Source: Nitrospinota bacterium
GTDB taxonomy: Bacteria; Nitrospinota; Nitrospinia; Nitrospinales; VA-1
Reading direction: 5' to 3'
DNA: 64,000 nt
NCBI GenBank assembly: GCA_009873655.1
Contig: WAIB01000010.1
Location: forward strand, 1-64,000
Shown here: piece after piece, positions 6,616 through 63,487 of the stretch
Layout: the number at the start of each line of letters is the position of its first letter
How positions within the stretch are numbered: position 1 is the stretch's first letter
Program-made: the position numbers and the translations under genes
Notes under the pieces: model-generated
Database searches by the model: none
What the model was told of the DNA's origin: nothing
Seen by the model: the letters and a program-made list of their open reading frames with translations, nothing else

Positions 6616-7614
6616 TTAATTCAGCGGCAAAAAAAATGAAATAAACCAGGTCATGGTTGGCCCCTTCACCTTTATGAATAATTCCAGGAGTTTGGGGTCG
6701 AAGTCGTCTGCCATTTGGCGGGTCATGAGGGTCAGGGTTTCCATGGTATTCAAGGCCTTCTTATAGGACCTTCGTGTGGTGAGGGCATCATAGACATCCA
6801 TAATTTTACATATCCTGGCATGCATCGATATTTCATCACCCGAAAGACCCTGTGGGTACCCTCCCCCTTTATATTTTTCGTGATGCTGTCCTGCCATGGC
6901 TATGACAATGTCTTTATAACAACACATATCCGCTAACATTTCCGCCCCTAATGAGGAATGGACTTTTATCCTTTCAAACTCCTCCTCATTCAATCTCCCG
7001 TTTTTATTGATCAGGTCAGCATCTACCTTCGATTTTCCCACATCGTGAAGCATTCCTCCGAACCCGAGCTGCTTCACATCCTCTTTGGGAAGCCTCACCT
7101 TGGTACCGAAAGTCATGCAATACAAACCCACGTTCACACTATGGGTGTGGGTATAATAGTCCTTGCTGGTTATTTGAGAAATACCCGCGAATCCGGCATC
7201 TGCAGTGGAAAGACATTCTTCCATCATTTCCATCACTTCTTCTGAGGACTCCAGGATCTTAGAGGAAGCGTTGTAGCTGAAAAATTCTTTCATTACCCCC
7301 TTGGAAACTTCATATACTTTTTTTGTTTTGGTTTTGACAGGAACATCTGGATTGTCCATGACCGAACGCAACGACTGCGTTGCAAAATGATAATATTTAA
7401 AAAGGTCCTCTTCTTTTATGAAAAAATCCTGGTCGATTTCTCCTTCTTCCAACAAACGTAAAACTTTATCCTGATGTTTGGGTTCGGTGCTGGCAAACTT
7501 TACGAAATTCTCCGAGTCCGACTGAATAAATATGTCAAAAGACTCACCACCTCCTTTAGCCAGAAACTCTAAATTAATCGGGCGAAAACTTTTTGATGCG
7601 GTTTCAGAAGACAT
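6616..7614 (-). CDS. HD-GYP domain protein, probable cyclic-di-GMP phosphodiesterase
   Basis: The C-terminal two thirds form an HD-GYP domain, which hydrolyses cyclic di-GMP. Visible are the metal-binding histidines around residue 156 (THTHSVNVG), the HD pair at residues 190-191 (GMLHDVGK), HH at 244-245 and the signature GGGYPQGLSG at 250-258. The first 150 residues carry no recognised REC, PAS or GAF motif and resemble the acidic N-terminal region often joined to soluble HD-GYP proteins. There is no membrane segment. It is transcribed alone, convergent with the thioredoxin-like lipoprotein gene. Since the core residues are all present, activity is likely; the signal sensed is unknown. Confidence 0.88.
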   Translation of the reverse strand: MSSETASKSFRPINLEFLAKGGGESFDIFIQSDSENFVKFASTEPKHQDKVLRLLEEGEIDQDFFIKEEDLFKYYHFATQSLRSVMDNPDVPVKTKTKKVYEVSKGVMKEFFSYNASSKILESSEEVMEMMEECLSTADAGFAGISQITSKDYYTHTHSVNVGLYCMTFGTKVRLPKEDVKQLGFGGMLHDVGKSKVDADLINKNGRLNEEEFERIKVHSSLGAEMLADMCCYKDIVIAMAGQHHEKYKGGGYPQGLSGDEISMHARICKIMDVYDALTTRRSYKKALNTMETLTLMTRQMADDFDPKLLELFIKVKGPTMTWFISFFLPLN

Positions 7615-7889
7615 ATTTAGTTTAAAAAATTCTCTTACAAAAAACGATCCATGTTTTAAAACAGGTTTATCACTCTATTGTAGCATCAAAATGTTTTAAC
7701 CCCAGCCTGGCTTTTTATATCAGAGGGATTGAAATTTAATATTTTTGATTTGATTTAATGAACTGGTTTTTTCGGAAACATAACCTTCGATTTTTCGTGG
7801 CTTTTCCCCGTCGAAAAATTAGATGAGAAAAAAAGGAGAGGCGAGAAGTCCGTTCAAAAAAATTTTCCAAATAAGAAAACAGGTGAAAA

Positions 7890-8321
7890 TTATTTTTTGA
7901 TGGATTCGCAAAGCGGAATACTTTTTGTGGGTTCGCTTAAAATGGTACCCACCGTAGAGGTTCTGAACATTTCCTCCATCAGGGCTATGGAATCATTCAA
8001 CCTTTTATGTAATCGACAAAGATTGGTTCCATGCGTTTTTAATTTTAACGGACAACTATTAATTTGTTTGATGGGATCCACCGCATTAATCACATTCAGC
8101 AACGGTAATTGTTCCGGGGGATGCGCAAGCATATACCCCCCGTGCAATCCCTTTTTGGAAAAAACCACCTCATGCTTCGCAAGCATCAATAAAACCTTGG
8201 AAAGATAATGTTCAGGGACCTTGGTTAACCTGGCAATCTCGGCGGTTGTATGAGGCTTGTCAGGATTTTGCGCTAAACCCACCACTGCTCTGAGAGCGTA
8301 CTCTGAAGTTTGAGATATCAT
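7890..8321 (-). CDS. Rrf2-family transcriptional regulator, NsrR-like candidate
   Basis: This 143-residue Rrf2-type repressor has the N-terminal winged helix (SEYALRAVVGLAQ, TAEIARLTKVPEHYLSKVL, and the wing KKGLHGGYML). Cysteines at 90, 102 and 138 could bind an Fe-S cluster, but the spacing is not the three-Cys pattern of classical NsrR, so the cofactor is uncertain. ATG 8321 is used because GGTGA sits six bases upstream; a longer frame to 8357 lacks an RBS. It is divergent from nirK. A 22-bp operator-like repeat between them (8392-8413) recurs at the ric promoter, so I infer that this protein is the NO- or redox-responsive regulator of both. Confidence 0.85.
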   Translation of the reverse strand: MISQTSEYALRAVVGLAQNPDKPHTTAEIARLTKVPEHYLSKVLLMLAKHEVVFSKKGLHGGYMLAHPPEQLPLLNVINAVDPIKQINSCPLKLKTHGTNLCRLHKRLNDSIALMEEMFRTSTVGTILSEPTKSIPLCESIKK

Positions 8322-8350
8322 AATTTCACCAATTAGAGATAAAAAAGACC

Positions 8351-8379
8351 TTGACATCTATTTTATCAGGTTTTATATT
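8351..8379 (+). promoter_or_regulatory. sigma70 promoter of nirK
   Basis: TTGACA (8351-8356) and TATATT (8374-8379) are separated by exactly 17 bases. Transcription would start near 8386, just before the inverted-repeat site at 8392-8413, which suits repression by a protein bound across the start of the transcript. Confidence 0.75.
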
Positions 8380-8391
8380 AAATACAATAAA

Positions 8392-8413
8392 AGATAAATT
8401 TATCTTTTTATCT
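8392..8413. promoter_or_regulatory. Operator-like inverted repeat shared with the ric promoter
   Basis: The site has the form AGATAAA-N8-TTTATCT and contains a nested 20-bp perfect palindrome, AAAAGATAAATTTATCTTTT (8389-8408). It matches the site at 62729-62750 at 19 of 22 positions with identical arm spacing. The AAGAT/ATCTT ends recall NsrR boxes (AAGATGYA half-sites), but the interior differs. It lies 12 bases downstream of the nirK -10 element. Confidence 0.7.
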
Positions 8414-8493: not shown

Positions 8494-9480
8494 ATGGCTA
8501 TTTTTAAACGGAAATGGAACTTTTTGATCCTGTTTCTCATTGCTGGGTTTTTGAACGGAACCCCCGCTTTCGCGGAAGTGGCCAAACTGACAACCGCCCC
8601 TGATGTTCCCCCGTCTCCAAAGCGAAGCAAAGCCGAAACCGTGATCATCCATTTACAGGCTAAAGAATATGTGGGGAATTTAACCAAAGATGTAAAATAT
8701 GGATTCTGGAGTTTTGGCGGAACCGTTCCAGGCCCCATGGCAAGAGCCCGTGTTGGCGACAGCATCGAATTTCACCTTTCCAATGCCAAGGAAAATACCC
8801 AACCCCACAATATTGATATCCATGCCGTAAATGGACCGGGCGGTGGGGCCTCATTCACCACCGTAGATCCGGGACAAGAGAAAATTTTCACTTTTAAAGC
8901 CAAGGCCGCAGGGCTCTTTATTTACCATTGTGCGGCCGGTTCGATTGTCGACCATATATCCAACGGCATGTATGGTTTGGTTCTGGTGGAACCCGCAGAC
9001 GGACTCCCCAAAGTAGACCGCGAATATTATGTTATGGAAAGTGAATTCTTCGCATCCGAACCGGAAAACGGCGTTGCTTCTTTTGACATCCAGAGAGGGC
9101 TCGACGAACACGCATCTCACGTCGTTTTTAACGGCAGGGAAGGCGGGTTGATGGGGGCCAACGCATTGAGGGCAAAAGCAGGTGAAACTGTTCGTATTTA
9201 TTTCGGTAACATCGGCCCCAACAGTATTTCATCTTTTCACATCATTGGTGAAATTTTTGACAAGGTTTATAACGAGGGAGGAATTGGTGGAGCCGCGGGT
9301 AAAAACATTCAAACCACATTGGTTCCTTCCGCGGGTGCAACGATTGTTGAATTTAAAGTGGATGCACCGGGAACCTATGCCCTGGTAGACCATAGCATCT
9401 ACCGCGTCGCCAAAGGTGCCATCGGGCACCTGGTGGCTGAAGGCGATGACAACCCAAAAGTAATCCGTCAAGGAAAGTAA
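8494..9480 (+). CDS. nirK: Copper-containing nitrite reductase
   Basis: NirK reduces nitrite to nitric oxide in the periplasm. The 328-residue precursor has a signal peptide ending AFA near residue 27 and two cupredoxin domains. All ligands are visible. Type 1 copper: His105, Cys146, His154, Met159. Type 2 copper: His110, His145, His300. The catalytic Asp108 (in PHNIDIH) and His249 (SSFHIIGE) are also present. Length fits the two-domain class with no fused cytochrome. AAGGAG lies 9 bases before the ATG. A sigma70 promoter, an operator-like repeat and a strong terminator (9506-9540) make it a single-gene unit, divergent from an Rrf2 regulator. In nitrite oxidisers NirK is common, but its role there is unsettled. 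Here it should yield NO, which fits the shared site with ric. Confidence 0.96.
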   Translation: MAIFKRKWNFLILFLIAGFLNGTPAFAEVAKLTTAPDVPPSPKRSKAETVIIHLQAKEYVGNLTKDVKYGFWSFGGTVPGPMARARVGDSIEFHLSNAKENTQPHNIDIHAVNGPGGGASFTTVDPGQEKIFTFKAKAAGLFIYHCAAGSIVDHISNGMYGLVLVEPADGLPKVDREYYVMESEFFASEPENGVASFDIQRGLDEHASHVVFNGREGGLMGANALRAKAGETVRIYFGNIGPNSISSFHIIGEIFDKVYNEGGIGGAAGKNIQTTLVPSAGATIVEFKVDAPGTYALVDHSIYRVAKGAIGHLVAEGDDNPKVIRQGK

Positions 9481-60997: not shown

Positions 60998-61981
60998 ATG
61001 AAATATAGAAAATTTGGCAAAACAGACAGACAAATATCAGAAATCGGATTGGGTACCTGGCAATTAGGAGCTGACTGGGGAAATGTCGATGATTCCACCG
61101 CTGAAAAAGTTCTGGCAACTGCAATTGATGCGGGAGTCAATTTTTTTGATACTGCCGACTGCTACGGTGAAGGTTTGTCCGAAACCCGGCTTGGGAAATT
61201 CTTGAATTCAATCTCCCGGGAAGTATTCATCGCTACAAAGCTTGGCCGGTTTCCAAAACCCGGTGGATCTGATAATTTTTCAATACAACAGTTTCGCCTG
61301 CATACGGAAAACTCGCTCAAACGCCTTGGCATTGAATGTCTCGACCTCACCCAGGTACACTGCCCGCCCACAGAGTTGATCAAGCAGGGAGAAATGTTCC
61401 ACTGGTTACGTACTTTAAAAAAGGAAGGGAAAATAAAGGAATTCGGAGTCAGTGTTGAGTCCATGGAAGAGGCGGAGATCTGTCTCAAACAAGAGGGTCT
61501 CTGTTCCCTGCAGATCATTTTCAATGTGTTACGGCAAAAACCAATAGATACTCTTTTTGATTTGGCCTTGAAAAAACAGGTGGCCCTGATCATCCGTCTG
61601 CCACTGGCATCCGGGCTTCTTTCCGGAAGTTTAAATACGACAAGCACCTTTGCTTTCGACGATCATCGCAACTTCAATCGAAACGGTGAACATTTCAATG
61701 TCGGTGAAACCTTTTCCGGTCTTCCTTTCGAAAAAGGTGTTGAAATTATCAGTCGGCTGGAACCATTGATCCCGGATGATTTATCCTTATCTCTAGCCGC
61801 CTTAAGATGGATTCTTGATTTTGAAGCGGTTTCCGTGATTATTCCCGGGTCCAAGTCCCCAAAACAAGTCCTGCAAAATTGCCAGGCAAGCGACCTTAAG
61901 CCTCTTTCCGCAAATTTTCATGAAACATTGAAGCAATTTTACAAACAGGATGTTGCCCCGCACATTCGAGGAAAGTATTAA
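60998..61981 (+). CDS. Aldo/keto reductase
   Basis: This NADPH-dependent oxidoreductase of the AKR family has 327 residues and a TIM-barrel pattern: EIGLGTWQLGADWGN, VNFFDTADCYGEG (catalytic Asp and Tyr), FIATKLGRF (catalytic Lys), LDLTQVHCPP (His) and the C-terminal cofactor strand SVIIPGSKSPKQV. It is of the YghZ/MocA-like group that lacks a clear substrate. GAGG lies six bases before the ATG. Its end overlaps the convergent ric gene by four bases. Confidence 0.9.
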   Translation: MKYRKFGKTDRQISEIGLGTWQLGADWGNVDDSTAEKVLATAIDAGVNFFDTADCYGEGLSETRLGKFLNSISREVFIATKLGRFPKPGGSDNFSIQQFRLHTENSLKRLGIECLDLTQVHCPPTELIKQGEMFHWLRTLKKEGKIKEFGVSVESMEEAEICLKQEGLCSLQIIFNVLRQKPIDTLFDLALKKQVALIIRLPLASGLLSGSLNTTSTFAFDDHRNFNRNGEHFNVGETFSGLPFEKGVEIISRLEPLIPDDLSLSLAALRWILDFEAVSVIIPGSKSPKQVLQNCQASDLKPLSANFHETLKQFYKQDVAPHIRGKY

Positions 61982-62676
61982 TTCACAGGCTTAATTTTCT
62001 CGAATAAGATATTGTTCTCCTTATGAATATGAAGGTGTGTATCCTTTTCAAGAAATTTCAACTCCTCGTACAATAGCCGAAAAGACTGGCACCCCTCTTC
62101 GGGAACTTTAAATCCGGCTGTTATTTCCCTTATATTTTTCAGCAAATCGCCAGCTTGATCATGTTCCTTCAACATGACCCGAATGGGTCCGGAAACGGCT
62201 TTCATATTTTGGCCCAGCTCTTCTGATTCAAGTTTTCTTATTAGAGGAAATAAAACCCGCTCTTCTTTCAATAAGTGCGGCTCAAGTTCTTCCCGCAACT
62301 CTGCAAACTTTACTTCTAAAACGATTAGCTCCGGGAAACGATCCCCATGCGCGGATAAAACTTTTGTGAGCAATTCCGCAATTCGAGGCAAGGCTTTTTT
62401 AAGATATTCATGATGCTCCGATTCAATCTGCAATGTCAGTTGTCCCGGGGTAACAGAATTTAAATCTCCCTCCTGACCTGTTTTAGGATTCTCTAACCCC
62501 CTTAACCGGTTTAACACATCTTCAGGTTCAAGACCGGTATCCAGACAGGCGTTTTCAAGAGAGGTCTCTCCCCCACAGCAAAAATCGATGGATAAATCTT
62601 CAAAAGTTTGGGCGCATAGAATATTGTCTTCTACAAACTCCCCCACCTTGGTTTGGGTACTCCAGTTGGAATTCAT
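61978..62676 (-). CDS. Iron-sulfur cluster repair di-iron protein (RIC; YtfE/ScdA family)
   Basis: RIC proteins repair Fe-S and di-iron centres after nitric oxide or peroxide damage. The 232-residue protein has the ScdA N-terminal domain with DFCCGGETSLE (Cys33-Cys34) and a hemerythrin-like four-helix domain with the di-iron ligands: EHHEYLK (His88/89), EPHLLKEERVLFP (His134, Glu138), LKEHDQAG (His172) and THLHIHKENNILF (His and Glu about 214-220). The promoter carries the same inverted repeat as nirK. It is convergent with the aldo/keto reductase (4-base overlap). An Nfu-type Fe-S scaffold is divergent from it, which fits an Fe-S maintenance locus. Confidence 0.93.
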   Translation of the reverse strand: MNSNWSTQTKVGEFVEDNILCAQTFEDLSIDFCCGGETSLENACLDTGLEPEDVLNRLRGLENPKTGQEGDLNSVTPGQLTLQIESEHHEYLKKALPRIAELLTKVLSAHGDRFPELIVLEVKFAELREELEPHLLKEERVLFPLIRKLESEELGQNMKAVSGPIRVMLKEHDQAGDLLKNIREITAGFKVPEEGCQSFRLLYEELKFLEKDTHLHIHKENNILFEKIKPVN

Positions 62677-62728: not shown

Positions 62729-62750
62729 AGATAAAAATATCCTTTTATCT
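62729..62750. promoter_or_regulatory. Operator-like inverted repeat at the ric promoter
   Basis: The site AGATAAA-N8-TTTATCT lies inside longer 12-bp perfect arms (AAAAAGATAAAA at 62725-62736 and TTTTATCTTTTT at 62743-62754). It matches the nirK/rrf2 site at 19 of 22 positions with equal spacing. It begins nine bases downstream of the ric -10 element. Confidence 0.72.
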
Positions 62751-62759
62751 TTTTATTTG

Positions 62760-62788
62760 AATATAAACCTGTTAAAATAAAATTTCAA
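62760..62788 (-). promoter_or_regulatory. sigma70 promoter of ric
   Basis: On the minus strand TTGAAA and TATATT are separated by exactly 17 bases. The inverted repeat follows directly, across the expected transcription start, as at nirK. Confidence 0.72.
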
Positions 62789-62899
62789 GGCAAAATCCTA
62801 TTTTGCTTGAAAAAAACTATTTAAAAACTTTTTGAACCCCCGTTGGCGAGAACCCATCTTAAAAGATGAATGGAGTAAAACTTTTTCAATGAGAATGGG

Positions 62900-63487
62900 A
62901 TGTCTGAAAATTATAAAGTTAAAGAAATAGAACTCACACCTAACCCGAGGGCGGTGAAATTCATATTAGACCAGGTCGTTTTGGAATCAGGCTCAAAAAC
63001 AATTGAGGCAGGGGCCTATTTGGAAACCGATGTCTTTGCGACCCATATTTTTGATTTAGGCATCGTCGACCTGGTTTATTGCCGGGAAAATTTTATCTCC
63101 ATTACCCTCCAATCTCCTGACCTGTGGGTTGTTTTTAAGGATAAAATAAAAAACATCATTGAAGCAGACTTAAAAAAATACGAAGAAGGAGATGATGAGG
63201 TCTCCTCCTCAATCCTCGATGATTTTGATAAGGAAAAATATCCAGAACTCTCAGATGACGAAAAGGTAATCATTGTTGAAGCGATTCTCGATGAATCTGT
63301 ACGGCCCGCGTTGGCCAATGACGGGGGAGGTCTTGAAGTCATTGAAGTCGAAGGACCCATTGTTCGAATTCGGTATCAAGGTGCCTGTGGTGGTTGCCCC
63401 AGTGCAAGCGGCGGCACTCTTCGGGTTATAGAAAATCACTTGAAGTCCCAACTCGATCCTGAAATCAAGGTACACACATATACTTAA
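62900..63487 (+). CDS. Nfu/NifU-type iron-sulfur cluster carrier
   Basis: The 195-residue protein has an N-terminal Nfu-N domain (ELTPNPRAVKFILDQ, the LTPNP motif being characteristic) and a C-terminal NifU-like domain with the cluster-binding CxxC: VRPALANDGGGLEVIEVEG, then YQGACGGCPSASGG. It would carry a [4Fe-4S] cluster between scaffold and client proteins. An acidic linker (EEGDDEVSSSILDDFDKEKY) separates the domains. It is divergent from ric, which suits a shared role in Fe-S maintenance; whether the AGATAAA site also governs it is open, since it lies 150 bases upstream. Confidence 0.9.
   Translation: MSENYKVKEIELTPNPRAVKFILDQVVLESGSKTIEAGAYLETDVFATHIFDLGIVDLVYCRENFISITLQSPDLWVVFKDKIKNIIEADLKKYEEGDDEVSSSILDDFDKEKYPELSDDEKVIIVEAILDESVRPALANDGGGLEVIEVEGPIVRIRYQGACGGCPSASGGTLRVIENHLKSQLDPEIKVHTYT

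Follow-up and report, generated by a model that had tools for sequence, protein, structure and literature searches.

We found that two promoter regions lying 54 kb apart, one between the divergent genes rrf2 and nirK and the other before ric, share an operator-like element of 22 bp. It is quite likely, judging from the sequence comparisons presented here, that these sites are the operators at nirK, ric and rrf2 of a putative NsrR-like, NO-relieved repressor belonging to a distinct Rrf2 subfamily. The host is a marine nitrite-oxidizing bacterium of the family Nitrospinaceae, phylum Nitrospinota, and the window is the whole stretch of its DNA that was analyzed (64,000 nucleotides).

Genes at the two loci

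The genes named in an earlier reading made from the DNA alone (the sequence-only reading), namely an Rrf2-family gene, nirK and ric, all scored above the cut-offs of their domain or family models. The genes at the two loci are:

7890-8321 (stop codon included), minus strand: rrf2, a regulator of 143 aa (MISQTSEYALR...) with a C-x6-H-x4-C-x2-H motif; PF02082, E 7e-25
8494-9480, plus strand: nirK, copper nitrite reductase; TIGR02376 300.2, cut-off 296.3
61978-62676, minus strand: ric (ytfE/scdA/dnrN family), di-iron Fe-S cluster repair protein; TIGR03652 229.9, cut-off 204.7
62900-63487, plus strand: nfuA-like Fe-S scaffold gene; PF01106 and PF08712

The start of rrf2 was placed at 8321 (minus strand) and not at 8357, as MISQT... 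is conserved in all 30 orthologs, and the window's Rrf2 is the one PF02082 protein detected in the genome. The nfuA-like gene is divergent from ric and has the operator-bearing intergenic region in common with it; the same divergent pair surrounds the site in three relatives (G034, G060, G064), and the nfuA-like gene may be an extra co-regulated target. Between nfuA and the ric promoter, at 62833-62856, there is also a stem-loop of ten pairs with a T-rich tail after it on the minus strand. The genome has a second nirK, 60% identical (L239, G000:C10:3922-4842), at which no operator was found (best candidate, 3 mismatches). Searches of the same genome found no homolog of trHb (truncated globin), no NO reductase (PF22085) and no Hcp (PF03063).

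Occurrence of the site in the genome

The genome was scanned by pattern searches (2.53 Mb in 59 contigs, about 92% complete). The pattern AGATAAA-N8-TTTATCT occurs with identical spacing and 0 mismatches in its 14 specified bases at rrf2//nirK (AGATAAATTTATCTTTTTATCT, 8392-8413) and at ric (AGATAAAAATATCCTTTTATCT, 62729-62750), and the two 22-mers agree at 19 of 22 bases, just as the sequence-only reading had counted when it proposed the shared site. Exact matches were not scattered: these two, both at NO genes, were the only ones, with none at 1 mismatch. The looser pattern RGATAWA-N8-TWTATCY returned the same two sites only (control, 0), and dinucleotide-preserving shuffles of the window (n=100) gave an expectation of 0.00 exact matches. 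At 2 mismatches the genome held 26 matches versus 33 for the reversed control, which is background, and no further regulon members were found in this genome by that search.

Anatomy of the operators and promoters

Although the outer arms of the site are present as first described, the N8 between them is not free: RGAT stands at positions 9-12, and conservation of this middle RGAT led us to give up the view of the site as a simple dyad with an N8 spacer. The consensus from 54 sites is RGATAAAnRGATATnTTTATCY, its information content being inflated since sites were admitted with up to 2 mismatches and their orientation was set by the middle GAT. Three RGAT half-sites make up the composite operator (RGATnnnnRGATnnnnnnATCY), and the third half-site within the N8 creates two nested dyads, RGAT-N14-ATCY (22 bp) and RGAT-N6-ATCY (14 bp). 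The control elements are:

8337-8359, no strand: O1, second operator-like site, AGATAAAAAAGACCTTGACATCT; inner 14-bp dyad AGACCTTGACATCT at 8346-8359
8351-8356, plus strand: nirK promoter -35, TTGACA; conserved in relatives
8360-8387, minus strand: proposed rrf2 promoter, facing that of nirK, read from the sequence; extended -10 TGATAAAAT (hexamer 8365-8360), -35-like TTGTAT (8387-8382), 16-bp spacer
8374-8379, plus strand: nirK promoter -10, TATATT, 17-bp spacer; sigma70 match
8392-8413, no strand: O2, main operator, AGATAAATTTATCTTTTTATCT; 22-bp outer dyad and perfect 14-bp inner dyad AGATAAATTTATCT (8392-8405)
62729-62750, no strand: ric operator, AGATAAAAATATCCTTTTATCT; exact match
62760-62788, minus strand: ric promoter, TTGAAA-17-TATATT; sigma70 match

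Both sites had been described as lying just downstream of sigma70 promoters, and this holds: TTGACA-17-TATATT at 8351-8379 agrees at 11 of 12 positions, with the operator 12 bp past the -10, and TTGAAA-17-TATATT at 62788-62760 agrees at 10 of 12, with the operator 9 bp past it. Taken singly, promoter matches this good are no commoner than chance predicts (shuffled regions contain 0.9-1.0 on average), so they gain weight through conservation only.

O1 was absent from the earlier listing. Its inner dyad contains the nirK -35 box, and its outer arm is 1 bp longer in this genome than in the O1 of relatives. The element is also present before rrf2, trHb or nirK in relatives and in other phyla. O1 starts 46 bp upstream of the start of O2 here, and this spacing is repeated before trHb of G063, G009 and G010 despite diverged intervening sequence; O1 and O2 stand at fixed spacing around the promoter in Armatimonadota and Planctomycetota as well. 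A TGnTATAAT-like element directly before O1 recurs among rrf2 orthologs. If, as we infer, the rrf2 promoter lies between O1 and O2 and faces that of nirK, each operator would cover one start region. An O1-type element (GGATATTGACATCT; L254, G004:C8:6707-6720) was also observed upstream of another nirK copy (6940-7866).

Conservation of the operator in Nitrospinota

The relatives compared were 77 genomes of the phylum Nitrospinota, in which the exact pattern gave 18 matches (reversed control, 3). Fifteen of the 18 lie before rrf2/nirK, ric (one of them a decayed copy in G060) or trHb. The other three were set aside as non-regulon matches: one before a phosphoribosyltransferase gene (G042:C85), one in a cysteine desulfurase gene (G054:C172) and one in a pth-like gene (G072:C107), all named by eye. 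The G060 copy, from the same genus as the window (L025, G060:C2:80824-81497), has an exact operator before a ric frame broken by several stops, reflecting either decay or an assembly error.

The site was found upstream of nearly all 30 rrf2 orthologs, across genera. G006 is the clearest exception at rrf2, yet it has the site at ric; G064 has no clear O2 at nirK (3 mismatches) and keeps O1 and the ric site; G050 has no clear site before ric. Among genomes where ric has its own promoter, the site precedes ric in 19 of the 20 that bear rrf2 versus 0 of the 6 in which rrf2 was not detected (p=3e-5), five of these six being at least 94% complete. Comparison of orthologous promoters thus bore out the proposed link, in that relatives keeping rrf2 keep the site and it is absent before ric where rrf2 was not found.

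A single divergent cluster unites rrf2, ric, trHb and nirK in several relatives, with the orders rrf2//ric (G024, G026, G029, G050), rrf2//ric-nirK (G004, G009), rrf2//trHb-ric (G046, G047, G057), rrf2//trHb-ric-nirK (G011) and rrf2//trHb-nirK (G010). Elsewhere the genes are scattered and the operator is kept; in the window's genus ric adjoins nfuA, 54 kb off, and retains it. Copies of nirK unlinked to rrf2 or ric mostly have no site. In relatives, trHb too belongs to the putative regulon. In G041, G042, G044 and G063 (L019, L030, L021, L026) the operator-bearing trHb operon has a gene for an unusual fusion of protoglobin with a PsiE membrane domain, and in G063 one for a further globin as well. 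In addition, a second trHb in G009 diverges from a second rrf2 paralog (G009:C25:27194-28316), and nothing closely resembling the 22-bp site was seen there.

The ric and nirK promoters are alike beyond the operator, which suggests shared descent, and the ric, trHb and nirK promoters may derive partly from one ancestral promoter, in which case their sites are not fully independent events. This likeness, together with the background level of the pattern at 2 mismatches, is what could be said for an AT-rich coincidence or a functionless leftover of promoter duplication. We find that explanation scarcely credible: shuffled sequence held no exact match, and the site is conserved across genera, the order and phyla even though its flanks have diverged. 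Conservation across genera excludes chance.

Related loci in other phyla

The same Rrf2 subfamily, with C-x6-H-x4-C-x2-H retained, occurs in Planctomycetota, Armatimonadota and Melainabacteria/Obscuribacterales. Of 58 regions upstream of rrf2 homologs, 15 contain a dyad with gap N6 and 11 one with gap N14, where the Markov model gave averages of 0.94 and 0.92 (at most 4 in 300). As related loci among the 58 are not independent, more weight falls on how these two gaps compare with the others than on any p-value. A distal site paired with a proximal one at 54 bp (measured between outer ends, in rrf2 orientation) is a recurring arrangement, seen in Armatimonadota and in one Pirellulales genome.

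ric is a neighbor in 21 scanned rrf2 loci, Nitrospinota included. A sample of 44 upstream neighbors, nearly all outside Nitrospinota, held hemerythrin/ScdA (8), qNOR-type NorB (6) and rubredoxin (4), with one each of NnrS, protoglobin and flavin reductase domains; an Hmp-like reductase is also among the neighbors in other phyla. In Melainabacteria/Obscuribacterales (L158, L162-L163, L165-L166, L168, L172-L173, L190) ric lies just upstream of rrf2 in the same direction, and several of these loci carry a different recurrent dyad, AAACAA-N4-TTGTTT, before rrf2.

The sites could in principle belong to another DNA-binding protein, with rrf2 as a mere neighbor and target. This is very improbable, because the presence of the site tracks that of rrf2, the operator geometry goes with this Rrf2 subfamily in other phyla where the neighbors differ, and 22-bp dyads fit known Rrf2 operators (23-25 bp).

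The Rrf2 protein and its class

The protein belongs to the Rrf2 superfamily (PF02082 88 bits, cut-off 30; TIGR00738 99.4, cut-off 73.3), and NCBIfam models place it in no named subfamily: IscR (TIGR02010, 45.3; cut-off 207.55), RirA (NF008886, 40.2; 193) and CymR (NF047409, 39.1; 195) all scored below threshold. The sequence-only reading had proposed an NsrR-like NO regulon whose box departs from the classical one (AAGATGYA). The NO-gene targets, the operator geometry and the conservation support this, but the protein is not NsrR by sequence: it scores 41.5 bits with the NsrR equivalog NF008240 (cut-off 182), and C-x6-H-x4-C-x2-H, the pattern shared with the homologs in other phyla, stands in place of NsrR's C-x5-C-x5-C, with C90 and C102 kept and the middle residue Thr or other. 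Nor does the consensus RGATAAAnRGATATnTTTATCY contain an AAGATGYATTT-type NsrR box. The acidic fourth ligand that NsrR has near residue 8 is represented by E7, which is aligned with RsrR E8 and is invariant, along with C90, H97, C102 and H105, in the 30-sequence alignment of orthologs.

A distinct Rrf2 subfamily is the best reading. The protein probably contains an Fe-S cluster, for which the predicted ligands are E7, C90, C102 and one of the histidines; the absence of the middle NsrR cysteine makes the cluster less than certain. In the AlphaFold model (mean pLDDT 87.7) the nearest fold neighbors are, in order, RsrR, CymR, IscR and NsrR. The [2Fe-2S] ligands of RsrR are E8, H33 and two cysteines; the glutamate and two cysteines are there in Rrf2, and H33 is T33.

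These features bear on a further alternative, in which Rrf2 binds the sites but senses iron, Fe-S cluster status or redox (like RirA, IscR or RsrR) instead of NO, with ric and nfuA as cluster-maintenance targets. The operator region common to the divergent ric and nfuA would suit it, as would a redox sensor as the closest solved fold and a glutamate at the E8 position with just two cysteines, as in RsrR. However, the recurrent targets are NO-specific (nirK, trHb, qNOR, NnrS, RIC), the H33 ligand is replaced by threonine, and nfuA is outside the rrf2//ric clusters of order-level relatives. On balance we regard this alternative as unlikely, and prefer a repressor relieved by NO.

Proposed regulation by NO

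In the preferred reading, a cluster-loaded Rrf2 dimer (7890-8321) would bind RGATnnnnRGATnnnnnnATCY immediately past the -10 elements of nirK and ric. At rrf2//nirK it would also occupy O1, which overlies the nirK -35 box and the start region of the proposed rrf2 promoter. Binding at both operator types would keep nirK, ric and rrf2 shut. NO, formed from nitrite by NirK or chemically, would then damage the cluster and release Rrf2, turning the genes on; in relatives the regulon would also include the truncated globin. Binding, repression, the cluster and NO as the signal are all inferred. Repression agrees with the placement of operators just past the -10 and across the -35 box, and targets that make, repair or remove NO would fit NO as the signal, the operators standing at genes of NO production, repair and detoxification (nirK, ric and trHb, with ric, norB and nnrS as neighbors in other phyla). 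A point against this reading is that NO would raise NirK in a genome where neither NO reductase nor Hcp was found, giving positive feedback unless NO is removed by NirK itself or by other sinks.

Nitrospinaceae are major marine nitrite oxidizers, and their nirK is widespread and of unsettled function (PMC3578206). If the model is true, NirK in an NO-defence regulon with no detected NO reductase suggests that it may serve NO handling and not denitrification. A regulon joining nirK to RIC and globins makes this question testable and predicts NO-induced expression. The regulon logic is not new: Proteobacteria are known to have NsrR regulons that include nirK, ric and globins (Rodionov et al. 2005, PMC1274295). 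Tentatively, we propose that this is a separate NO-sensor lineage in Rrf2, with an unusual Cys/His/Glu ligand set and a composite two-operator code, present in at least Nitrospinota, Planctomycetota, Armatimonadota and Melainabacteria, which places the NirK of Nitrospinaceae in an NO-defence regulon. The Rrf2 family would thereby gain an operator code found throughout the lineage and, probably, a new set of cluster ligands. The literature searched, which covered few subscription papers, yielded no description of this subfamily or of its ligand pattern, operator code or place in Nitrospinota.

Comparison with known systems

IscR has the Rrf2 fold in common with the protein described here, which falls under the IscR equivalog cut-off (45.3 vs 207.55) and has NO genes as its targets. 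The C-x2-H ending of the motif in the present protein resembles the last Cys and His of IscR.

RsrR of Streptomyces venezuelae (PMC5015018; 6hsd, 6y42) is, among solved structures, the nearest in both fold and sequence (25% identity). It likewise has a glutamate in the N-terminal region as a potential ligand, a divergent gene and paired operators between facing genes. It differs in being a redox sensor tied to NAD(P)H metabolism (PMC5015018), in its H33 ligand, which is Thr here, and in its 11-3-11 motif.

The NsrR of Thermus thermophilus (PMC5748679) is similarly a lineage-specific NsrR-like regulator. It is encoded next to nir/nor genes and has a palindrome of its own (CTTGACCNNGGTCATGG) and a partner carrying a RIC domain. 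In contrast to the present case it has three conserved cysteines, acts as both repressor and activator, uses a different box and targets nirS, nirJ and norC.

The nearest parallel in logic is the NsrR regulon (PMC1274295), with an Rrf2-family repressor and nirK, ric (dnrN/ytfE), globins, nnrS and norB as targets. In its box, gATGyAT-N5-ATrCATc, GAT to ATC spans 19 bp, near the 20 bp seen here. Unlike that regulon, the half-site here is GATAAA and not GATGYAT, there is an extra conserved middle RGAT and a second operator, and the regulator, far under the NsrR equivalog cut-off, is without the middle of the three cluster cysteines.
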